Below, in pieces: positions 3,476 to 22,244 of a stretch of 22,701 nt of DNA. Both the position numbers and the translations under genes were made by a program. The first letter of the stretch is position 1. Every line of letters begins with the position of its first letter. Source of the stretch: a virus; IMG/VR virus record IMGVR_UViG_3300023257_000131, positions 1 through 22,701 of that record; one strand, given 5' to 3'. The notes under the pieces are model-generated. The model had not been told where the DNA came from. It ran no database searches and was given only the letters and a program-made list of their open reading frames with translations.

Positions 3476-3943
3476 TTAATCATGCCATTCAGGATCAACT
3501 GTTGATCCTACAGCCAACGTCGGTGCAGCTCCTGTCCCTTGAAATGTATATGTCGTTTTAGTCACATCGTCTACCGGCGATGACGGCGATATACCAGTTA
3601 ATATAATACTGCCATATATGACGTGTAATGTATCGCCAGCCGTTCCGTTTAAATATAACCCTACTTCATGTGCCACGCCTGCTGATATTTCTTCTGCTCC
3701 AAAATGAGTTAAATCTATTTCGCCTGCCATATCGTTAATAACTTCAAAAGAACCTGCCCAATCAAATAAGCCTGCTACTCTAGCACGATAGTTATTTGCA
3801 GACGTACCGTTTGTCATGCTTGTAGTTTCGGCTGTATCGCAACTGATTGAGCAGTTCCAGTTTTGGCAATGGTCTACAATGTCATCTGTTTCAGCTCCAG
3901 TTTTCCATTCAACCTTACCGCTTTTCCCGTTAAATTTACCCAT
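3476..3943 (-). CDS. Tail tube protein paralogue 3 (longest copy)
   Basis: A 155-residue beta-rich protein, the third of three tandem related genes. It shares with the other two an N-terminal GK.GKV motif, a Trp about 20 residues later, AETTSM (about residues 38-43) and an AGLFDWAGSFEV segment matching AGFKDWTATIEV in copy 1. It differs by extra residues between ETT and AG and by a longer C-terminus. Tail tube proteins stack as hexameric rings around the tape measure. The third copy might be the main tube, a minor ring near the tip, or a tube-derived tip protein; order alone does not tell. The start at 3943 has AGGAG eight bases upstream. Confidence 0.75.
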   Translation of the reverse strand: MGKFNGKSGKVEWKTGAETDDIVDHCQNWNCSISCDTAETTSMTNGTSANNYRARVAGLFDWAGSFEVINDMAGEIDLTHFGAEEISAGVAHEVGLYLNGTAGDTLHVIYGSIILTGISPSSPVDDVTKTTYTFQGTGAAPTLAVGSTVDPEWHD

Positions 3944-3959
3944 GTCAATTACTCCTATA

Positions 3960-4343
3960 TTAACCTACTACAAATTTACTATTGCCTTCGAAACTATATG
4001 TCGCAACAACAACTTCTTCTTTGTCAACAGCCAACGCACAATCAGTAGCTATGCCTGTAGCGGTATATGTGTTTGTTCCATCACTAAATACTAATACGCC
4101 TGAATCGCCAATCTCGCCTAATACTGTTGACGTACCCATTAGGACATTAGTTGAATCTACGCGTATCTCGACAGTTGCCGTCCAGTCGGTAAAGCCTGCA
4201 AGATAATCCTTGTAATCACCGGCACTATCCATAGCGGTAGTCTCGGTTAAACTAACAGTATAATCGAAACTCCAACTTGAAATATTAGCCTGAGTTTCAC
4301 TTGTCCAGGTTAGCGAACCTGCTTTTCCATGTCTCATAGCCAT
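3960..4343 (-). CDS. Tail tube protein paralogue 2
   Basis: A 127-residue beta-rich protein, the same length as copy 1 and clearly homologous: MAMRHGKAGS against MAMAHGKGGS, a Trp in SSWS, ETTAM against ETTFM, and YLAGFTDWTATVE against YLAGFKDWTATIE. After about residue 65 the two diverge strongly. It has the best Shine-Dalgarno sequence in the region, GGGAGGTGAT with seven bases to the ATG at 4343, which suggests high expression, as expected for a tube subunit made in many copies. MAM gives a second ATG two codons later. It lies 17 bases downstream of copy 1 and 16 upstream of copy 3. Confidence 0.8.
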   Translation of the reverse strand: MAMRHGKAGSLTWTSETQANISSWSFDYTVSLTETTAMDSAGDYKDYLAGFTDWTATVEIRVDSTNVLMGTSTVLGEIGDSGVLVFSDGTNTYTATGIATDCALAVDKEEVVVATYSFEGNSKFVVG

Positions 4344-4362
4344 GTCATCACCTCCCTTTCAT

Positions 4363-4746
4363 TTATGCCGCCGTCCAACTTGTAGGAGCAAGAATACCCT
4401 GAATTGACATAGTAGCTTTTGTGATGCCTTGAGCATCGCAAGCGACACTAATTCCTGTGCAGATACATCCGTTAGTCGCCGCTGTAAATGTTGCTGAACC
4501 ATCTGTTAAAGTACAAGCTGTTAGCGTTGAACCCAATACAGTTAGTGCAGCAGTGCAAACATTTACCTCTATCGTGGCTGTCCAGTCCTTAAAACCAGCC
4601 AGATACGATTTGTAGGCAGCATCGGCGGCCATAAAAGTTGTTTCTGCCATATCAGCAGTCATATTAACACTCCAAGATGTTACGTTTGTAACATCTCCTC
4701 CAACAGTAAGTGTTACCGATCCGCCTTTTCCATGTGCCATTGCCAT
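4363..4746 (-). CDS. Major tail tube protein, paralogue 1
   Basis: A 127-residue beta-rich protein (Thr, Ala, Ser and Val-rich) placed just after the tail terminator, the standard slot for the major tail tube subunit. The first half carries the motifs shared with the next two genes (HGKGGS, TSWS, ETTFM, YLAGFKDWTATIE). The second half has four to five Cys residues (VCTAAL, TACTL, NGCICTG, ACDA), unusual for a tube protein and absent from copy 2 in that number, so disulphide or metal cross-links are conceivable. AAGGAG lies eight bases before the ATG at 4746; a second ATG follows two codons later. Confidence 0.8.
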   Translation of the reverse strand: MAMAHGKGGSVTLTVGGDVTNVTSWSVNMTADMAETTFMAADAAYKSYLAGFKDWTATIEVNVCTAALTVLGSTLTACTLTDGSATFTAATNGCICTGISVACDAQGITKATMSIQGILAPTSWTAA

Positions 4747-5553: not shown

Positions 5554-5871
5554 TTATTTTAATAAGTATATTTTTTGATGACTACCCATAAAATTAACAT
5601 CAGGATCGATCCCAACTACAAGATAATATTCACTCTTATAAACTACTCTGTCTTTGCCAAGTATGCTATTTGACGTAGCACAATACAAAACATAATCAGA
5701 GATAACTGTCATGTTGCCGCCGTTTATGCCCTCCGCTGATTTTTTCTGTACTAACCTACAAGGCATATTCGATATTTGAACGGTCCACGCCTTAGCAGCG
5801 GCTCCATAATCGTCCTGCGAAAATGCAGGCCGCTCGACATTCACTTTTATATTGTATAAATCTGCAATCAT
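5554..5871 (-). CDS. Head-tail stopper/adaptor protein (SPP1 gp16 / HK97-type joining family)
   Basis: A 105-residue beta-rich protein overlapping the connector gene by four bases (ATGA). The sequence runs from IKVNVERPAFSQDDYGAAAKAWT to PCRLVQKK and ends in YYLVVGIDPDVNFMGSHQKIYLLK-like strands; the YGA..K.W and late V.G..P pattern is that of the small head-closure proteins (Phage_H_T_join/gp16). These sit beneath the connector ring and close the DNA channel until the tail joins. Size and gene order agree. Translation is likely coupled to the connector. Confidence 0.75.
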   Translation of the reverse strand: MIADLYNIKVNVERPAFSQDDYGAAAKAWTVQISNMPCRLVQKKSAEGINGGNMTVISDYVLYCATSNSILGKDRVVYKSEYYLVVGIDPDVNFMGSHQKIYLLK

Positions 5872-6776
5872 ACTGTACTCAACATAGGTTTTTTTCGTAT
5901 ATAGTTTCTTAGTAACTTATCAGCGGATTCTATTCCGGTTGACGACTTCATATCAATGTCAGCAAGCGTGTAAGCATAATCGCCTATCTTTTCGGATTTT
6001 AGAGTACTGCTATAACCTGGATATAAAGTAGAATCATTTTCAGAACTCGCCAATATAATCGCAGCCTGTTTAATCGCAGGCGGCGTGCTACTCCAGCCAT
6101 AAGTACCAGTGACTTTGATATTACCCATGCCTTTAGGAAATAATCTATGCTTATAGCTCAATCGCAAATACAACTCAGGCAAATCGTCCTCGTCACCTGT
6201 TACGGCTTCAGGGTCAAGATAGACAGAATTAACATCAGATGTCCACCACGAATCAGGCAGCTCTACACCTGATATTTTAATCTCAGTCACCGTCAAAACG
6301 TCTGGGATTAGTCCGAGAAATAGCCGGTCATTACTATTGCCGTCGATATAAATAACAAAAGCCTTTGAATAGAAATAATCCTTAGTTATCAACTCTATTG
6401 TCTGTTCAACTCGATTGATAATTTCCTGCCGATCAGTCGTACCGCTGCCCTCTCCGGTGTCTAGTGTGTGAGTCCCAGAGCCGACATCTGTAATATCAAC
6501 AGCAGTACCAGCGGCAGCATTGACGGCACTTGTAGCAACCTCTATCGTCGTAGCGTCAATGTTAATTGCATAATAGGCAGTCCCGGCCACCAATGGGGCC
6601 GGGACAGCGCCTGTTGAGCTAAATCTAATCAGCGAGGCCGTATCAATGTCATTTGCAACTGTTATCCTGTCGGTCGTTATATTAACGGCTGTGGTTGCAA
6701 ACGTCTCGGTCGAGCTTACAGCATCGTCCCAGTTTGATATATCAGACTCTACTATGTAATTACCTGAAGCAGCCAT
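5868..6776 (-). CDS. Head-tail connector (gp6/gp15-like adaptor) with inserted beta domain
   Basis: A 302-residue protein. The first 20 residues (NYIVESDISNWDDAV) and residues 113 onward (TTDRQEIINRVEQTIELIT, then KDYFYSKAFVIYIDG, and IKQAAIILASSE near the C-terminus) form a typical head-tail adaptor that packs under the portal. Between them, about residues 23-112 form a Thr/Ala/Val-rich beta segment (including PLVAGTAYYAINI, TTIEV and GSGTHTL) that looks like a small beta domain spliced into the adaptor at its first loop. AAGGA lies seven bases before the ATG at 6776, three bases after the upstream stop. The adaptor assignment is fairly firm; the role of the insert is unknown. Confidence 0.78.
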   Translation of the reverse strand: MAASGNYIVESDISNWDDAVSSTETFATTAVNITTDRITVANDIDTASLIRFSSTGAVPAPLVAGTAYYAINIDATTIEVATSAVNAAAGTAVDITDVGSGTHTLDTGEGSGTTDRQEIINRVEQTIELITKDYFYSKAFVIYIDGNSNDRLFLGLIPDVLTVTEIKISGVELPDSWWTSDVNSVYLDPEAVTGDEDDLPELYLRLSYKHRLFPKGMGNIKVTGTYGWSSTPPAIKQAAIILASSENDSTLYPGYSSTLKSEKIGDYAYTLADIDMKSSTGIESADKLLRNYIRKKPMLSTV

Positions 6777-6779
6777 TAG

Positions 6780-7169
6780 TTATTCCTTAATTTCGTCAAG
6801 ACCAGAAACAATTTTGCGAATCTTTAGCAAATCTAAAGCCGACATTTTAGCTTCTTGCAATGAATCAATATCTATTTTCTTAATGTCAACTTCGACTTCA
6901 TGCGTAAGCAATTCTTTGTATTCATTACCATAAGCCTCTTCGTCCTCAATCATATATTTACCATCTTCGGTTTTAGGATTGCCGTTATCGTCTAATAGAC
7001 TATATTTCTTAATTAGGCTCATCCTTGCCTTTTCAAAAATAGTTACCTCAGCAGCCAAAGCCATATATGACTTGGCAATTGAGTACGCTTCTTTGATAGG
7101 CAATTTCTCACTTAGTAATTCATCCAAAACCTGTACCGTTCCTTTAATTTCTGCCAGTTGCAACTTCAT
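6780..7169 (-). CDS. Small helical phage protein (possibly DUF1617-like)
   Basis: A 129-residue, strongly helical, charged protein. Motif-like stretches are LSEKLPIKEAYSIAKSYMAL (residues 18-37), FEKARMSLIKKYSLLDDNGN and a later LLTHEV segment. From memory this resembles small proteins of the DUF1617 type found in phage structural modules, whose role I do not know. The ATG at 7169 lies inside the end of the glycosyltransferase gene (26-base overlap), with GGAG seven bases upstream, so its translation is probably coupled. It directly precedes the connector gene and may act in head completion or assembly; this is inference. Confidence 0.65.
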   Translation of the reverse strand: MKLQLAEIKGTVQVLDELLSEKLPIKEAYSIAKSYMALAAEVTIFEKARMSLIKKYSLLDDNGNPKTEDGKYMIEDEEAYGNEYKELLTHEVEVDIKKIDIDSLQEAKMSALDLLKIRKIVSGLDEIKE

Positions 7170-7971
7170 TTTTTGTCTCCATTTCTATGTTTTCTGAAAG
7201 TGATTTTGGAGTCGTCCACCCTGGAAGACTTCCATCTAATACATCGTTAATAGCAACGTAATGAGTTTTATAATATGCGGAATCGCTTCCGCACCATGAA
7301 CACATCAACTCCATGTGTCCTATAAATACCTCAGCCAACGCAACTTTCAATCCTTCATGTTTACATTTAATCCAAAAGTTAATATCTGCGTCTTTATGAT
7401 GCAATCTCCAGTTATTATCCTTGTTTGGTTTACTTATGAACCACGGCTTAGATAATCGCTTCAAACTTTCCAGCCTTATCAATGTCAAACCAAAATGACC
7501 GGTATCGGCCTCAGATATACCGTCAACAAATTCCCTTTTCGCTGCGACTTTAACTATATCTCCACGATCGTCATTGAAAATACCTGCTATCGGATACTTG
7601 TGTCCGCGTTTTGATTGCAAGGGAAATAATACATCTATTTCAGTGTGCTTTTCTATCGTTCGATACAAGTCTATCAAGTGAAATTTAGTAAAGTAAGTAT
7701 CGTAATCAATAGCCAATGCGTACTTGAATCCGCTTTCCGTTGCATCCTCTAGTAGGTTCTCGACACCTTGCTCCCAAAATACACCACAATGCCGCTGACC
7801 ATAAAGCCCTAACTCGTGTACAGCATTTATTAAACAAAACATATTGTCAGTGAAAGCCAACCTCGGCATCGACATTATAAAAGCTACATCTTTGCTGATA
7901 TTACCTACATCTATTAACAGCTTTTCCACTTTCCCTATTTTCTGTTCGATTTTCCCTGGTTTTTTTTCCAT
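7144..7971 (-). CDS. Glycosyltransferase, GT-A fold (GT2-like)
   Basis: A 275-residue soluble protein. After a basic N-terminus, KDVAFIMSMPR starts a nucleotide-sugar binding fold; KYALAIDYDTYF (residues 83-94) carries a DxD motif (Asp89 and Asp91), which in GT-A enzymes holds the metal and the sugar nucleotide. Further on come TGHFGLTLIRLESL (acceptor-side region), DADINFWIKC (194-203) with a likely catalytic acid, and a His near the end of the domain (IGHME). It would move a sugar from a nucleotide donor to an unknown acceptor in the host cytoplasm. Together with the adjacent methyltransferase and the fibre gene it may decorate a virion protein. Start at 7971 with AAGGA upstream. Confidence 0.78.
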   Translation of the reverse strand: MEKKPGKIEQKIGKVEKLLIDVGNISKDVAFIMSMPRLAFTDNMFCLINAVHELGLYGQRHCGVFWEQGVENLLEDATESGFKYALAIDYDTYFTKFHLIDLYRTIEKHTEIDVLFPLQSKRGHKYPIAGIFNDDRGDIVKVAAKREFVDGISEADTGHFGLTLIRLESLKRLSKPWFISKPNKDNNWRLHHKDADINFWIKCKHEGLKVALAEVFIGHMELMCSWCGSDSAYYKTHYVAINDVLDGSLPGWTTPKSLSENIEMETKNEVATGRN

Positions 7972-7983
7972 ATTTTTCCTTTC

Positions 7984-8502
7984 TTATTTTATCGCTATTA
8001 CATTAAGACTTATCCGCTTACCCTCAAATTGTATTTCAGAACAATCATTAAACAAACCAAAGGATTCCGTTCTGGCAACTGAACAAAACCCAGCGGTTCC
8101 AAGCAATCCTCTGAGCATTTCAAACTCGAAACCAAATTTATGATAATCATACCTATCAGTCTGCGATCCATACACCATATGTAATACACGTATTTTGTTT
8201 TGTGTTGACAAGTTGCCATTCAAATATAAGTCAAACAAAACCTTAAGGTCGGGGACGGCTACGTATAAAACGCCGCCAGGCTCTAAAACCCTTCTCCATT
8301 CTGTCAACACTTTAGTGATAGATTTTCGACTAAAGTGTTCAAGCACATGAGAAGTATATACTTCACAAAAAGTCTCATCAGCATATACACTCAAATCAAT
8401 AGCATTGCCGGCTTCATCCACGCCTGGGCCTAACTCTGTGTTAAATATCTCCCAGCCGTCTTTTACCAGCTCACCGCCAATATGTAGTTTTCGCTGTTCC
8501 AT
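7984..8502 (-). CDS. SAM-dependent class I methyltransferase (short form)
   Basis: A 172-residue protein of the Methyltransf_11-like fold. KLHIGGE (residues 5-11) takes the place of the usual K-L-N-L-G-C-G SAM-binding loop, followed by GWEIFN, the acidic NAIDLS strand, VYTSHVLEHF (49-58, the central E-H-F motif) and RVLEPGGVLYVAVPDL (71-86, the PGG turn). It is shorter than most (220-260), and the SAM loop is degenerate (GGE for GCG), so activity is uncertain. Such enzymes often sit beside glycosyltransferases, as here, and methylate sugars. Start at 8502 has only a weak GGA; a 24-base stem-loop lies just upstream. Confidence 0.75.
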   Translation of the reverse strand: MEQRKLHIGGELVKDGWEIFNTELGPGVDEAGNAIDLSVYADETFCEVYTSHVLEHFSRKSITKVLTEWRRVLEPGGVLYVAVPDLKVLFDLYLNGNLSTQNKIRVLHMVYGSQTDRYDYHKFGFEFEMLRGLLGTAGFCSVARTESFGLFNDCSEIQFEGKRISLNVIAIK

Positions 8503-8554: not shown

Positions 8555-9835
8555 TCAAGATAACGCAGCCGTAGAAACCCACGTTCCGCTACCGGTGTGA
8601 ACCCAGAGACAAGAGGTGTCTGTTTCAAAATACAGTGAATAGTCACCAGGGTCTTCTGATGTCGGACCGGTAGCACTATTAGGCAATGTCAATCCGCCCA
8701 GATCGCTCTGAATCGCACAAGTGATCACGGCACTGGTAGTGCCTGACATCGTGATATTGAAATCAGTAAATGTTACGGTTTCTGCACTTGTATCAAAGGT
8801 GATAGCATCAGTTGTAGTATCGCCGTAAATAATCACGTCCTGATTGTTTGAATGACCAATCCAGATGGCAGTGTTTTCATTCGCTCCATCAATTAGCAAT
8901 CGAGACGTATCCCACGTAACGGTAATATCAGGTGCAGCAGCCGTACCACCAAAACCAAGTATGGCGTCGTCCAATAGTCCGAGCGTATCCTCTGAGCCGT
9001 CCCAGTGGAGGTCAGCATCGGCAGAAACACCTTGCATGATTACATCGGTAATAGTGCCTTTGCCGATGTTAATCACACCGTTGGCAGAACCGGCATTAAC
9101 AGCAAGTTGAGATTGGTCCCATTTGATCTGCATGTCATCACTATCGCCAAAAGTGAGAATGTCATCGTCCTGAAGCTCCAAATCCCAGCCGTTCAGGATT
9201 ATCTCCGGCGTACTGACATCGAATAAAGCGATATTGGTGTTTGTCGAACCATATACAGCGAAATCGATCGCATTAGTCGAGCCGATTCTTATTTGGCCGG
9301 TATTGTCAGCATAAGCCTCGATAAGCAGATTGGTAACATCCCAAACTATGCTAACATCGCCGCCGGTCGCATCGCCGAACTGCAATTCGTCGTCATCTTG
9401 TAGGTGCATATCCCAGTCATTTATCTCGACGATACCACTATTCGCATCAAATTTGAATATCTTGGTATTCGTATTTGCGTAAATAGACACATCGATAGCG
9501 GTTGTAGGTCCGAACTGAAATTCGCCTGTGTCTTCAGCTAAAGAATTTACAACAAAATTAGTACCGTTCCAGACCATTGATACGTCTGAGCTTGTACCAA
9601 AATTTAACCCATCATCATCGAGATAGGTTACGGATGTTGTGGCAGGCAAAACTAAATTACCGCCACTGTCAACATAAATATCAATATAATCGCCACTTGA
9701 ATCAGCTAATTTTAACTTATTCCCATAAGTAACCATTACGTCGCAATCGATGCCGTCATCAAAAGCCTCTTGAATTATTCTACCTAGACCCTGATGCATA
9801 TCAGTGTCTAACGCACTTAAATCTCTTACAGCCAT
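8555..9835 (-). CDS. Repeat-containing beta fibre / decoration-type virion protein
   Basis: A 426-residue, acidic, Asp/Thr/Gly-rich protein two genes downstream of the major capsid gene. After an N-terminal helix (about residues 12-27, RIIQEAFDDG) come four imperfect repeats of about 66-76 residues (72-144, 145-220, 221-286, 287-360), each built on a LqDDdiL.FG start, an I.W(D/N) strand and an I.IG/FG strand, with a Y-strand and an F(D)...EI strand later in three of them. The C-terminus (PGDYSLYFETDTSCLWVHTG) looks like the tail-fibre ending that reports a surface-exposed tip. No enzyme motif is seen. By gene place it may be a head fibre or capsid decoration protein, perhaps a trimer. AAAGGG precedes the ATG at 9835. 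Confidence 0.7.
   Translation of the reverse strand: MAVRDLSALDTDMHQGLGRIIQEAFDDGIDCDVMVTYGNKLKLADSSGDYIDIYVDSGGNLVLPATTSVTYLDDDGLNFGTSSDVSMVWNGTNFVVNSLAEDTGEFQFGPTTAIDVSIYANTNTKIFKFDANSGIVEINDWDMHLQDDDELQFGDATGGDVSIVWDVTNLLIEAYADNTGQIRIGSTNAIDFAVYGSTNTNIALFDVSTPEIILNGWDLELQDDDILTFGDSDDMQIKWDQSQLAVNAGSANGVINIGKGTITDVIMQGVSADADLHWDGSEDTLGLLDDAILGFGGTAAAPDITVTWDTSRLLIDGANENTAIWIGHSNNQDVIIYGDTTTDAITFDTSAETVTFTDFNITMSGTTSAVITCAIQSDLGGLTLPNSATGPTSEDPGDYSLYFETDTSCLWVHTGSGTWVSTAALS
8756..9622 (-). repeat. Four imperfect protein-level repeats of about 70 residues
   Basis: The four repeats inside the fibre gene begin LDDDGLNFG, LQDDDELQFG, LQDDDILTFG and LLDDAILGFG. Units 1, 2 and 4 are closest in length and order of strands; unit 3 is shorter by about eight residues. 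The similarity is at protein level, with nucleotide divergence, so the duplications are old. Confidence 0.75.
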
Positions 9836-9863: not shown

Positions 9864-10160
9864 TTATTTTTTGGTTACTCTCTTTTTCTTAATTATATTT
9901 TTAGAGAGTACGGTTTTTGTAGTAACTGGCTTTGGTTGTTCTATGACTTCGTCAATATCACCAACATCATCAGGCTCGATAGTTTCAGTTATGGTAACGT
10001 CCACAAACTCAAGCAGATCAAAAGCATCTGCTACCTCTTTAGCATTAGCAACTTCAGAATCATTAAATTCGATTGTCTGATTTTTGGATAGTTCCCAAAC
10101 ACCATCATTCGTATAAATCGATCTTGTGTTGCCGTAATTTGTGACTTTATACTTAATCAT
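9864..10160 (-). CDS. Small unrecognised protein following the capsid gene
   Basis: A 98-residue protein. The first 35 residues (MIKYKVTNYGNTRSIYTNDG, then WELSKNQTIEF) form a small beta fold, followed by a helical ANAKEVADAFDLLEF segment, an acidic linker and a Lys-rich tail (KKKRVTKK at the C-terminus). The opposite charges of linker and tail are typical of small accessory capsid or connector proteins, but I do not recognise a family. It lies 20 bases after the major capsid gene with GGAAGG eight bases before the ATG at 10160. It may bind the capsid or DNA; this is inference. Confidence 0.65.
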   Translation of the reverse strand: MIKYKVTNYGNTRSIYTNDGVWELSKNQTIEFNDSEVANAKEVADAFDLLEFVDVTITETIEPDDVGDIDEVIEQPKPVTTKTVLSKNIIKKKRVTKK

Positions 10161-10180: not shown

Positions 10181-11284
10181 TTAATCGTTGGCACTAGACA
10201 TCGAGCCAGTTACAATAAGTTTTCTTGCCAATACACAAGCATTGACATTTTCGATAGTAGGATCGACACGAGCAGAATAGAACCAATAAGTTGCCTCATC
10301 AGCCGCTACTCGCTGAGCCTCAATCTTAATCTCACGCTGGATACCGATAACTAAGTTACCGTTTGGAGTAAGCAGGCAATCGGTATAAGCTCCACCAGAC
10401 GAAGCTTCAATAGCTTGCGCGCCACCGTCCATAACAATCGGCATATTAGGACACGATATGATTTTTACTCCACCATAACTAAGTGGAGCGTTTCCGATAA
10501 TAGCATTATCACCCTGGACGGTTGATCTTTGCTGGAGAGCGTCAATGTAATTTGTCGTAACCGCATCGTTGTTGTAAAACGCAAGATTTTTCAATCCACT
10601 GGTTTTATACTTTGAATCAAGATTTTGTAGCATTGTGTTATACTTAAAATCCCAGATATACGGAGCTGTAGTTGACACCATAGCTATCCTACCACTTTCG
10701 ATCGGGAAAGTTGTGTCATCTGTAGCATCGAGTACCGTCGAGCCGCCGGATACTGAGTTGTAATAGTCATCACCAACAGTATCGCCATTAGCAATTCTAA
10801 AACGCCAGCCGTCCCACAAACTCCTAATATCAGTGTCTTCATAATCATTGCCAGTACCGGTGTCGCCGGTCCAGTATGCTATGTCTAACTCATTAGACAT
10901 TTGTTTTGCAACCATTTTCATTACATGGTCAGCAAAGGCATCGCCCTCGATATTATCCTCAAGGTCATCGTCGAATATTACAATACAGCCCCTTACTTTT
11001 TTGCTCGTCAATTGTATCCGCTGTGTTGATAGTGACTTTTTATAGTCAGACGAAGTAAACGTCGCTCCAGGATGCAAAAATGCTCCAGAACCTAAACCTA
11101 AAGCACGAATGTTTTTGGTCGGCTTACTCATTTTAACGAAACGTGCGGTGTTTTTCATTACAGATTCGTCAACTAGATAATCAATAAATCTGTCAGCCTC
11201 TTCGGCTTCTAACGTGATATTCGGCAGGCTCACCATTTTGGTAAACGCTGCTTTGTTTTTTAGAAATTGGTTATTAGTTATCAT
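10181..11284 (-). CDS. Major capsid protein (HK97 fold)
   Basis: A 367-residue protein directly after the scaffold gene. It has a helical N-terminus (residues 1-40), an E-loop-like region (LGSGAFLHPGATFTSSDYKK, then TQRIQLTSKKVRGCIVIFDD), a long spine-helix segment (FADHVMKMVAKQMSNELDIA), and the late P/A-domain pattern YGGVKIISCPNMPI, then LTPNGNLVIGIQREIKIE. This is the layout of HK97-type capsid proteins that are helped by a separate scaffold, since there is no long helical delta domain. It would form the hexamers and pentamers of the head shell. The start at 11284 has AGGAGT eight bases upstream after a 46-base gap, the longest in the head region apart from the stem-loop gap. Confidence 0.9.
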   Translation of the reverse strand: MITNNQFLKNKAAFTKMVSLPNITLEAEEADRFIDYLVDESVMKNTARFVKMSKPTKNIRALGLGSGAFLHPGATFTSSDYKKSLSTQRIQLTSKKVRGCIVIFDDDLEDNIEGDAFADHVMKMVAKQMSNELDIAYWTGDTGTGNDYEDTDIRSLWDGWRFRIANGDTVGDDYYNSVSGGSTVLDATDDTTFPIESGRIAMVSTTAPYIWDFKYNTMLQNLDSKYKTSGLKNLAFYNNDAVTTNYIDALQQRSTVQGDNAIIGNAPLSYGGVKIISCPNMPIVMDGGAQAIEASSGGAYTDCLLTPNGNLVIGIQREIKIEAQRVAADEATYWFYSARVDPTIENVNACVLARKLIVTGSMSSAND

Positions 11285-13890: not shown

Positions 13891-14121
13891 TCACTCCTTA
13901 GGTTCGAATTGTATCCCGTTATCGCCTGGGTACGGCTTTGTGTGTTGTCTCTCTCCCGAATAAAATACTGGAGGTATTGCATCCGGAAACGCATCACAAG
14001 CAATACTATCATTAAACCGGTGTTTACAAAAGACACACGAGATATTATTGTTTTGTATCGAACGCAACGCAGCATCCATAGTCATATCGTCTTCTTTCAT
14101 TACAATAGGATTTATACTCAT
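13891..14121 (-). CDS. Small Cys-containing protein following the minor head/zeta fusion
   Basis: A 76-residue protein starting at an ATG that overlaps the previous stop (ATGA), with a purine-rich GGGAGGGAG upstream. The N-terminus is variable; from residue 29 it reads CVFCKHRF, then ACDAFPDAIPP, SGERQH and KPYPGDNGIQFEP to the end. I have seen this C..C...C.AFPDGIP...G...H..PYPGD.GI.FEP pattern in small proteins encoded beside phage head morphogenesis genes, but I know no assigned role. Cys29, Cys32 and Cys43 could bind a metal. Given its tight coupling to a gene with a toxin-like domain, a partner or immunity role is one hypothesis; an ordinary structural accessory is another. Confidence 0.7.
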   Translation of the reverse strand: MSINPIVMKEDDMTMDAALRSIQNNNISCVFCKHRFNDSIACDAFPDAIPPVFYSGERQHTKPYPGDNGIQFEPKE

Positions 14122-16031
14122 ATTTTGCTCCCTCCCGTAGCAACTTTAATCGGTTTTTTGCCACGTGGTACATCCGTGTTGTAATGTACCCACTTGTTTA
14201 CTTTACCTTTTAACCTGTTAAATGTATCTATATTTTTTGTTCCGTGCGTCGCTTGATACATAGGCTCTACAAATCTATTTTGCTGCCCGTACATACGAGA
14301 GATTGAACGCAGCATACTTTTCTCAAGCGGTAAATCAGCAAAAGCGGCCTCAACTTCGTATCCATATTTTTTATACGCATCAACAATCTTTAATGCTTTT
14401 TTTTGACTTTTCATGGTGCCGTCAAACATTATATTCATCTTTGATGCCCGTGCTCGATCAAATAGCTCATTGATAATATAATCCGATTCCTGCTGATACG
14501 ATGCTGAACGCCAGCCGAGTGCTTTATGACCATCTGCTTTTGCAAGTTTTAGCTTTATATCATCGCTGTCAATATGTAAATACTTCTTTTTCCATCCCGG
14601 AAAGGCTGTATTTAACATTGATGATTTGCCACTACCTGGATATCCACCTGTCATTATAAACTTAGGAGTACCTTTTGCTGGTTTGACAGTAGCAAGCATA
14701 TCGTCCGCAATATTTTGATGTAATTGCAATCGCTTATGTAGCACTTTTTTGGTAACTTTGCCGCTAAAATATGTATTGATAGTCGGTGGAGTCTGTGACT
14801 GTAACTTCCTAAATTTTATAATATCTTTATAAACTTCTATTTTAGTTTTGCCACGATACTTTAATAAGTCAATGGCCTCTTTAGTATCAAGATGTATAAT
14901 TTTCTCATAAGCATCAATTCCCAGTTTTGACGGCTTATATGTTTTTGTAGCAATATCATCACTCTCACGCAAAGCGTTAAACGATCTGCTACTTAAGGTT
15001 TCCGTTGGTTTCGGGACTAATGCAGGCCTCGCAATCGGAGGTGTTGGTTTAACTACTTTTAACTCGCCTTTGTGTCCAAGCTTTCTAAGTGACCCTTTAA
15101 GTTTTCTACTTATTGCTATGTCAGTAGTTTTCTCTAGTTTTTTCAACAATCCGTCAATATGCTTAGGAACGGCGGACGCAGCTTGCTTTGGAGTTCCTAC
15201 GCTTTCGCCTGCGATTACAGGTATGAATCCACTCCGACAATTTACATGAGCCGGAATTATACCCACTGATTCCGCTGGCGTGAATTTCTTACCATTTAAA
15301 TTCAAACATATTGTCGAAGTACGGTCATCTAATATTGCAGAAAATTCTACTTGCTCAACTCCTAAGTCTTCCATGCCTACAGCATATCCCATATTTTGGG
15401 CCCTTGCCGTTTCTGTCCTGGCTATCGTTTTAGCCCTACGCCTATGTGTTTTATCTGCATACTTCTGAGTTTTCCTATCAATATCAGTATCGGTTAATTT
15501 CGGAAACTTATCTTTATCCTGTAACCTGGTTCTGAAATTCATTACCGATTGAGTTTGGTTTTTAGTTAATCCTACCAACGGACGAACCTCGCGTGCGATC
15601 TTATCCATCGATTTGCCTTCTTTAACGCCGGCACTTATAAAAGTACGGATTCCTTTTTTAGTTTCATTCGTTACCTGTCTAACCAAATCAGCGGTAAACT
15701 TTTCGGCAGCACGGACTGAAACTACATTCAGCACATCAAAGGAACCCTTTGCCTGCAATAGGTTATATGACTGTTCGCCGCCATTTGACATAACAGTTAA
15801 TGTCGCCGGCTTGATTATATCTTTGCCTTTATCCTGTATGAATTCCCAGTCGGTAAGCGTGCTGGTTATATCCTTTTGAAATTTAGTCCTCAAATCAGAC
15901 TGTATCTGCTTGATTGCATAACTAAACCATTCCCTTACGGCAGATTCAAATATAGGCTCCATCCGCCGCCTATGCCAATCCAGCTTAGCATGGATTTTAT
16001 TTCTAAATTGTGTTTTAATTATCGTTATCAT
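14118..16031 (-). CDS. MuF/SPP1 gp7-type minor head protein fused to a zeta-toxin-like kinase domain
   Basis: A 637-residue protein. Residues about 100-275 are a minor head (Phage_Mu_F/gp7) domain: long helices, then ARTETARAQNMGYA (205-218), FSAILDDRTSTIC and AHVNCRSGF (261-269). Residues 276-450 are a helical, Lys/Pro-rich linker I do not recognise. Residues 455-600 look like a zeta-type P-loop kinase: GYPGSGKS Walker A (463-470), HIDSDDIK (486-493), IMFDGTMK (534-541) with a GT as in zeta toxins, YGYEVEAAFADLP (556-568) and LRSISR (574-579). Zeta toxins phosphorylate UDP-N-acetylglucosamine. Minor head proteins bind the portal and may be injected. The start at 16031 overlaps the portal by 17 bases with a weak AGAGAT upstream. 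No epsilon-type antitoxin is apparent nearby. Confidence 0.8.
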   Translation of the reverse strand: MITIIKTQFRNKIHAKLDWHRRRMEPIFESAVREWFSYAIKQIQSDLRTKFQKDITSTLTDWEFIQDKGKDIIKPATLTVMSNGGEQSYNLLQAKGSFDVLNVVSVRAAEKFTADLVRQVTNETKKGIRTFISAGVKEGKSMDKIAREVRPLVGLTKNQTQSVMNFRTRLQDKDKFPKLTDTDIDRKTQKYADKTHRRRAKTIARTETARAQNMGYAVGMEDLGVEQVEFSAILDDRTSTICLNLNGKKFTPAESVGIIPAHVNCRSGFIPVIAGESVGTPKQAASAVPKHIDGLLKKLEKTTDIAISRKLKGSLRKLGHKGELKVVKPTPPIARPALVPKPTETLSSRSFNALRESDDIATKTYKPSKLGIDAYEKIIHLDTKEAIDLLKYRGKTKIEVYKDIIKFRKLQSQTPPTINTYFSGKVTKKVLHKRLQLHQNIADDMLATVKPAKGTPKFIMTGGYPGSGKSSMLNTAFPGWKKKYLHIDSDDIKLKLAKADGHKALGWRSASYQQESDYIINELFDRARASKMNIMFDGTMKSQKKALKIVDAYKKYGYEVEAAFADLPLEKSMLRSISRMYGQQNRFVEPMYQATHGTKNIDTFNRLKGKVNKWVHYNTDVPRGKKPIKVATGGSKI

Positions 16032-21068: not shown

Positions 21069-22244
21069 TTATTCCTCACGTAAAGGGAGGTTTATTCGGT
21101 TCCAACTTCCTGGCGTAGTGTAGCCGCCAGTTAATGTTGGCTTCCCTTTATTCCATAATGGTGAGCTTGGTAATAATCTAAAATCATTATTCGCAGCATC
21201 AGCAAACATCGGATCAACGGATAGATTATTGTTACCAACTGGTATTGCCGCCGACTTCTGAGTATCATAAAAACCATTCGCAACCGTCAATTCACCGTCC
21301 ACCGCCCAAACACAGTTATTATCACAATAAACAACAGCGCCAACATTACCGGCATGAATCTCTATGGCGTAATCAGTGGCTCCAACAGCGGGCATTAGTA
21401 TATTATTTTGAACGTACGCCGTGGCTACTCTATTATTCATTGAGATACAGGCATCAGTCTGATTATAACATGTACAATTGACAACACTAACCCCACCTTC
21501 TGACGGCTGGATCGCTCTTGCTCCATCAATTATAATTGTGTTGTAGATTGAATCGCCTTTGGCGGGGAAAAAAACCGTCTGATCGATCCCGATCATATCA
21601 ATTAAACTATTACTGATATAATTTCCGCCAGTATCGCTATCGTTAAATCTTACTCTGGCTCCGGTAATGATGCAATTTTCTACCACAGAATCGGCAAACT
21701 TTCCCCTGATTGCATAGATATAATCAACACCAGAAGCCAATGTCATTTTGCAGGTATCCCAAACCCATCCTAAAGGATTAATTCCAGCTAAAGGATTAAT
21801 TCCAGCGGCCATTGCCTTAAAAGCATATCTCCCACCTTTAATACCATCTATATCGAGGTATCGCCAAACTAAATGATGGCGGCCAGCAGCGACCGTCACA
21901 AAATCATCATCAGTATTTTCGAAATCGAACGTCGTATAAGAACCGTCATAGGTTTCGCCCGGTCTCATGTCTCCAGTTGTTACGGCGTATGCTTCGATAA
22001 TGATAGGAGAATTTGTAGAAATAACCCCAAAAGTACCATCAACGTCTAATCCAGCCCCGCCATTTCCCCATCCAGTCGAGGCGGCGGTATATATGGTTTT
22101 AGTTGCTTCGTCTTTGTCTCCCCATTTAACCCATATCGTATTGCCAGCCACAACATTGTCGAGAGCAGACTGGAGGTCATACGGATCAGCCTCACTGCCA
22201 ACACCGCCCGGCCCGCCGTCTTCTGCTACATATATATCAGCCAT
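21069..22244 (-). CDS. Right-handed parallel beta-helix protein (candidate receptor-binding or glycan-active)
   Basis: A 391-residue protein without a signal peptide. It opens IYVAEDGGPGGVGSEADPYD (residues 4-23), the entry of many pectate-lyase-like beta-helix proteins, then runs through Asn/Ile/Val-rich rungs (DGIKGGRYAF, VVENCIITGARV, GGNYISNSLIDM, VVNCTCYN, YVQNNILM, YCDNNCVW) and ends NDFRLLPSSPLWNKGKP, the usual close of such a helix, with a short tail. Such folds serve as tailspikes that bind or cleave surface polysaccharides; no catalytic set is identifiable here. The ATG at 22244 overlaps the previous stop (TAATG), with GAGGA six bases upstream. A six-residue duplication is present at 21771-21806. 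Confidence 0.75.
   Translation of the reverse strand: MADIYVAEDGGPGGVGSEADPYDLQSALDNVVAGNTIWVKWGDKDEATKTIYTAASTGWGNGGAGLDVDGTFGVISTNSPIIIEAYAVTTGDMRPGETYDGSYTTFDFENTDDDFVTVAAGRHHLVWRYLDIDGIKGGRYAFKAMAAGINPLAGINPLGWVWDTCKMTLASGVDYIYAIRGKFADSVVENCIITGARVRFNDSDTGGNYISNSLIDMIGIDQTVFFPAKGDSIYNTIIIDGARAIQPSEGGVSVVNCTCYNQTDACISMNNRVATAYVQNNILMPAVGATDYAIEIHAGNVGAVVYCDNNCVWAVDGELTVANGFYDTQKSAAIPVGNNNLSVDPMFADAANNDFRLLPSSPLWNKGKPTLTGGYTTPGSWNRINLPLREE
21771..21806 (-). repeat. 18-base perfect tandem duplication inside beta-helix gene
   Basis: The 18-base unit taaaggattaattccagc occurs twice back to back (21771-21788 and 21789-21806). It keeps the frame and gives AGINPLAGINPL in the protein. It looks like a recent slippage or duplication event. 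Confidence 0.9.

Follow-up and report, generated by a model that had tools for sequence, protein, structure and literature searches.

A methyltransferase and glycosyltransferase pair in a phage head operon as a probable virion-decoration cassette

The window analyzed in this work is the whole of a 22,701-nt (22.7-kb) viral contig with one structural operon on the minus strand, in which a methyltransferase (MT) and a glycosyltransferase (GT) are encoded between the major capsid protein (MCP) and the head-tail connector. We consider it probable (roughly 70%) that this pair constitutes a virion-decoration cassette, responsible for glycosylation and O-methylation, with the fiber or another head-surface protein as acceptor. 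In the mechanism that we propose, the GT-A enzyme, supplied with a nucleotide sugar, would glycosylate a side chain on a protein of the head surface late in infection, after which the class I methyltransferase would cap the added sugar by O-methylation. The finished decoration might shield the particle, stabilize it, or affect its binding. The likeliest acceptor in the window phage would be the repeat fiber encoded just upstream, the alternative being the capsid or another head protein; in most relatives, the MCP or a protein of approximately 145 aa would have to be considered. From the evidence below we infer catalytic activity, sugar identity, the acceptor, and methylation after glycosylation on the same glycan; gene neighborhood by itself is no proof of an acceptor.

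Glycosylation of phage virions has so far been shown in a few cultured mycobacteriophages. In contigs of uncultivated viruses, the MT-GT fusion family described below turns up repeatedly at one head-operon site; if our reading is true, methylated particle glycans would be common in environmental phages and would matter for how phages decay, adsorb, and are recognized by the immune system. A wider proposal, to which we give even odds, is that a head-glycan cassette built around the MT-GT fusion, with an optional sulfotransferase, FkbM methyltransferase, or cytidylyltransferase, is widespread in uncultivated tailed phages, occupying a fixed capsid-connector slot and passing, along with a surface fiber, from one head type to another unrelated one. 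Methylated or sulfated virion glycans would then be common but overlooked.

Organization of the structural operon

The operon runs in the order terminase, portal, MuF-type protein with a Zeta-toxin domain, XkdF-type protease, MCP, 98-aa protein, 426-aa fiber, MT, GT, 129-aa protein, head-tail adaptor, connector, and tail genes. The MCP (positions 10181–11284; this and all other window features given here are on the minus strand) matches the virion structural protein family phrog_1623 and has 54 related loci. It is followed by the 98-aa protein that adjoins the MCP in the window's clade (9864–10160) and by the fiber (8555–9835), which is the best candidate acceptor. The 172-aa MT (7984–8502) lies 52 nt beyond the fiber and is separated by 12 nt from the 275-aa GT (7144–7971), the gene for which overlaps by 26 nt that of the 129-aa protein (6780–7169; phrog_1401); next comes the head-tail adaptor (5868–6776; phrog_442, 5.7e-16). 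Both enzyme ORFs are intact, each with a clean start and stop, and a purine-rich AAGGA precedes the GT start. They coincide exactly with the pair that an earlier note, drawn up from the DNA letters, had placed between the fiber/capsid genes and the connector genes.

Several other genes of the window merit a brief description. The MuF-type head protein (14118–16031) ends in a Zeta-toxin/AAA domain (matches to PF04233 and PF06414), i.e., it is a MuF-toxin-like fusion. Three successive, similar genes of 127–155 aa (3476–4746) apparently encode paralogous tail-tube-like proteins, the homologues of which in contig L003 are only 40–53% identical, versus 96–100% for most neighbors. A tape-measure-like gene (1310–2680) has evolved much faster than its neighbors in the comparison with L003 (dN 0.156, dN/dS 0.53). 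Upstream of the terminase, a 391-aa protein (21069–22244) matches DUF5123 slightly below the cut-off and is perhaps a right-handed β-helix.

Properties of the two enzymes

The MT matches Pfam Methyltransf_11 (PF08241) at 30.2 bits, for a cut-off of 21.2, and its AlphaFold model (pLDDT 90.6) retrieved class I SAM methyltransferases in Foldseek; this Pfam match and the agreeing fold, along with the fused homologues described below, support its assignment as a class I SAM-dependent enzyme, as had been suggested for this short ORF. The window protein is the stand-alone form of a domain that is usually fused to the GT. Its glycine-rich motif I region (GxGxG in the class I consensus) reads as a shortened LHIGG (8473–8487) in the family alignment, most members having NLGxG, and in a poorly modeled stretch after strand 2 it has Asn21, at a position occupied by Asp in most relatives; some doubt therefore attaches to SAM binding by the window MT. 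The LHIGG form is common to the window MT and to intact homologues from contig L059 and from the three nearest relatives of the window pair (L278, L279, and L280), and a dN/dS of 0.31 against contig L003 indicates that the gene has been kept by selection.

For the GT, no meaningful match was obtained to any curated Pfam or NCBIfam family. Single-sequence searches returned near-identical contigs only, with no match in phages or plasmids, and sequence searches of the PDB gave chance matches only; a weak NCBIfam/PDB match to serine palmitoyltransferase was dismissed as chance. An AlphaFold model computed from a 42-row alignment (the window and 41 relatives) reached a pLDDT of 83.7 and a pTM of 0.79. 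Searched with Foldseek, this model has a GT-A fold, with 105 PDB matches at E ≤ 0.001, led by GT-A enzymes, the matches to which span 4e-9 to 1e-4. Its nearest structures include B4GALNT1 (1e-8), STIV A197 (6e-7), LH3, polypeptide GalNAc-transferases, and SpsA. In a viral library, the best matches were mostly uncultured phage proteins, several of them annotated as glycosyltransferase and one as FkbM methyltransferase.

The motifs of the GT agree with this fold. The IDYD (7699–7710) from which a GT-A enzyme had originally been proposed is an invariant DxD, with D89 and D91 unchanged throughout the family alignment, and is the expected metal/nucleotide-sugar site. In IGH (7315–7323), H219 is invariant and is the expected third metal ligand. 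DADINFW (7372–7392) marks the expected catalytic-base region; it is invariant in the 42-row alignment by construction, because the scan that collected the rows demanded DADIxFW, and the GTs of L278–L280 carry DADVxFW. Further invariant features among the 42 sequences are PR, a Trp, HxGxT (HFGxT), PW, and GH. The gene is under purifying selection (dN/dS of 0.058 against L003), and its product is a predicted sugar-transferring enzyme.

Fusion of the two domains in uncultivated viral contigs

The wider GT family came to light only with a degenerate DNA pattern for DADIxFW, run over viral contigs with gene context ignored. This pattern scan recovered at least 79 new GT loci, all of which encode relatives with the same motif set. 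In at least 22 of the 75 GT-family loci scored, the window's MT family is fused N-terminally to the GT (phmmer E values down to 2e-21), i.e., in the same MT-then-GT order as in the window, but there as two genes. Among the matches listed, an MCP is encoded no more than three genes upstream in 41 of the 46 loci with at least three upstream genes, and a connector no more than three genes downstream in 40 of the 61 loci with enough flank. A Pfam check of 52 sampled neighbors assigned 30 to the HK97 capsid family (PF05065) and 20 to the gp6 connector family (PF05135). The upstream partner, again among the matches listed, is usually a protein of approximately 145 aa between the MCP and the GT, with a few loci lacking a recognized gene there. 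A scan started from the MT instead yielded 73 loci that could be scored, with the MT fused to the GT family in 53, of which 36 have an MCP no more than four genes upstream; these counts are not independent of those from the GT side, because the MT query alignment held fused members and some contigs recur.

On a quick GT tree, with long branches and some contigs cut, the fused and unfused states need approximately seven changes, so that joining or splitting of the domains has happened several times. Hardly any of 50,697 phage records contain the fusion family, and no description of it was found in the open-licence literature.

The repeat fiber and the nearest relatives

The nearest relatives of the window pair, L278, L279, and L280, are MT-GT fusions with 56–60% identity to the window in the GT and 44–47% in the MT. 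Each of these loci encodes a fiber homologous to that of the window and 919–1418 aa in length, situated directly upstream of the fusion in L280 and one to two genes upstream in L278 and L279. The repeats of these fibers match the window fiber with phmmer E values of 2e-204 to 2e-82, and a C-terminal WVSTAALS is common to the fibers of the window and L278. The heads of L278–L280 are unrelated to that of the window, with an MCP of phrog_14242 and an adaptor of SU10 type. Because the same fiber thus stands beside MT-GT in phages with a different head, fiber and enzymes appear to have travelled together; co-occurrence of the enzyme pair with the repeat fiber in relatives, which the earlier note had put forward as a check, accordingly came out in favor in L278–L280.

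The window fiber is rich in Thr and Asp. Its N-terminus is conserved within its own phage clade, and its repeats and C-terminus are shared with fibers beside MT-GT fusions. As a caveat on the four-repeat fiber described earlier, the repeat is degenerate and is visible at the protein level only, with no tandem repeat in the DNA and no match of the fiber to itself by BLAST. A scan with the repeat fiber recovered L278–L280 once more, which is not independent evidence since these were in the query, and L358 as the only new locus. There, no MT-GT separates a weakly related fiber from the next gene, which is homologous to the 129-aa gene of the window, and the locus looks like an unoccupied site for these enzymes.

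The location between MCP and connector, the fusions, and the fibers of L278–L280 together make a virion protein well supported as the target, in line with one half of the original suggestion, which named a virion protein or host surface sugars. A universal fiber acceptor is spoken against by the absence of such a fiber from most relatives and of the enzymes from L358; as acceptor the fiber is therefore plausible for the window phage only.

Alternative targets and roles

Modification of the MCP or of a small neighboring protein, in place of the fiber, would still amount to virion-protein modification and is a possibility to which we give less than even odds. It would suit the constancy of MCP and connector as neighbors, the usual presence of the 145-aa-type partner upstream, the loci in which the MCP is the nearest recognized upstream gene, and the mycobacteriophage glycans that, as summarized in PMC12619734, sit on capsid and tail-tube subunits. 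An MCP acceptor is harder to reconcile with L278–L280, which share the repeat fiber with the window despite an unrelated MCP. In phages with unrelated heads the family keeps to its place between MCP and connector, with the same fiber, which argues against enzymes directed at host surface polysaccharide, for seroconversion or superinfection exclusion, and present in the head operon by chance. Some phage GTs do change the serotype of the host (PMC12619734), and relatives of the MT are encoded in a glycosyltransferase-rich region of a bacterial plasmid; however, neither the flippase nor the membrane GT that would accompany a gtr-type operon was recognized in the window, and we regard a host-polysaccharide target as unlikely.

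Hypermodification of phage DNA bases against restriction appears more improbable still. DNA is the substrate of many phage GTs (Pyle 2024, as cited in PMC12619734), and the MT could act on a base, but PF00303 (thymidylate synthase/hydroxymethylase) was found in none of 16 related contigs of 17–57 kb (a weak negative, these being fragments), the genes lie in the head module, and protein/glycan GTs lead the fold matches, a TET-associated GT appearing no higher than rank 40 in the viral library. Additional enzymes encoded around the fusions bear on the same question. Sulfotransferases lie beside or are fused with the MT-GT protein in L169, L213, and L225, the last having a sulfotransferase-MT-GT fusion (L225:5391–7385) directly after the MCP and a small neighbor. 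FkbM-type methyltransferases lie beside or are fused with MT-GT in L213, L278, and L279, a cytidylyltransferase-like protein accompanies MT-GT in L213, and L286 has further GTs beside an MT of the window's family. Such an ensemble points to glycan decoration more than to DNA modification. That the pair is mere mobile cargo, without any part in the virion, might be read from its patchy presence in the MCP clade but is hard to square with purifying selection, conserved position, and repeated MT-GT fusion, and we give it hardly any weight.

Comparison with known systems

Virion decoration by glycosylation and methylation, the reading that we prefer, has several points of comparison. The head operon of cluster O mycobacteriophages (Corndog) encodes an O-MT and GTs, detected in infected cells and unassigned to virions, for which capsid modification has been proposed (PMC4351075). 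The likeness to the window is that a single MT adjoins GTs amid the capsid genes, an order confirmed in Firecracker and Catdawg. In contrast, the cluster O enzymes are separate proteins, encoded upstream of the capsid gene in the interval from portal to protease, and no homology was detectable between them and the window MT and GT (hmmsearch E ≥ 0.2; hhalign probability ≤ 0.3%). Mycobacteriophage virions have been described with glycans on their own capsid and tail-tube subunits (Freeman 2023, via PMC12619734 and PMC12691614); these accounts concern other hosts and other GTs, no MT-GT fusion was seen in what they relate, and our homology comparison covers the cluster O set only.

A biochemically proven case is that of PBCV-1, in which virus-encoded GTs and class I MTs (A064R and A061L) add and O-methylate a terminal sugar of the capsid glycan (PMC9614988). 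The two activities are fused in A064R; the system differs from ours in belonging to a eukaryotic giant virus, in building an N-glycan, and in a domain order of GT-GT-MT instead of MT-GT. STIV A197 is also a viral GT-A protein, for which the Foldseek match noted above has a target TM-score of 0.64, but from an archaeal virus; annotators have given its name to a P22-type homologue. The window cassette thus resembles known virion glycosylation systems, but its family is a different one, with MT-GT fusions and a fixed location of its own: no homology to the cluster O enzymes was detectable, and these are encoded on the opposite side of the protease.

The window's own clade and P22-type phages

Among the 54 loci related through the MCP, the order is MCP, 98-aa-type gene, fiber-type gene with a similar N-terminus, and adaptor. 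Within this clade, the MT-GT pair of the window occurs in near-identical contigs only, and it must be dispensable, since related phages with the same MCP and fiber N-terminus lack it. The connector region of L039 encodes a 509-aa GT followed by a 143-aa MT, that of L042 a 556-aa GT followed by a two-domain MT, and that of L020 (12984–15230) a three-domain GT-GT-MT fusion, in the order of PBCV-1 A064R, followed by another GT. Because L020, L039, and L042 carry different GT-MT genes, GT and MT have been acquired more than once in the clade. Matches to the GT family PF00535 and to the MT family PF08241 were each found in 5 of 31 clade contigs, with 4 above the cut-off in each case and some of them outside the structural region.

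P22-type phages from Manatee Spring carry an MT and a GT (MW202573) or a GT-MT fusion (MW202691) between the coat and the tail adaptor. In 28 of 82 P22-type coat loci, this slot holds a GT, accompanied in 13 of the 28 by an MT, either fused or separate. The P22-type GT and MT are distant homologues of those in the window by profile-profile comparison (hhalign, 96.6% and 98.7%, respectively), and phrog_1574 matches both the window-type and the P22-type GT groups; the window GT as a single sequence gave no convincing support against the P22-type GTs. The P22-type coat is followed by a protein of approximately 163 aa or by a short form of 66–111 aa with a similar start (L078–L157). A GT accompanies the short, 78-aa-type protein in 26 of 43 loci and the 163-aa protein in 0 of 26, a contrast that is descriptive only because the loci are related. 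In two of the P22-type loci (L087:4851–5594 and L149:9810–10649), an MptE-like protein (PF01973) occupies the coat-adaptor slot in which others have a GT.
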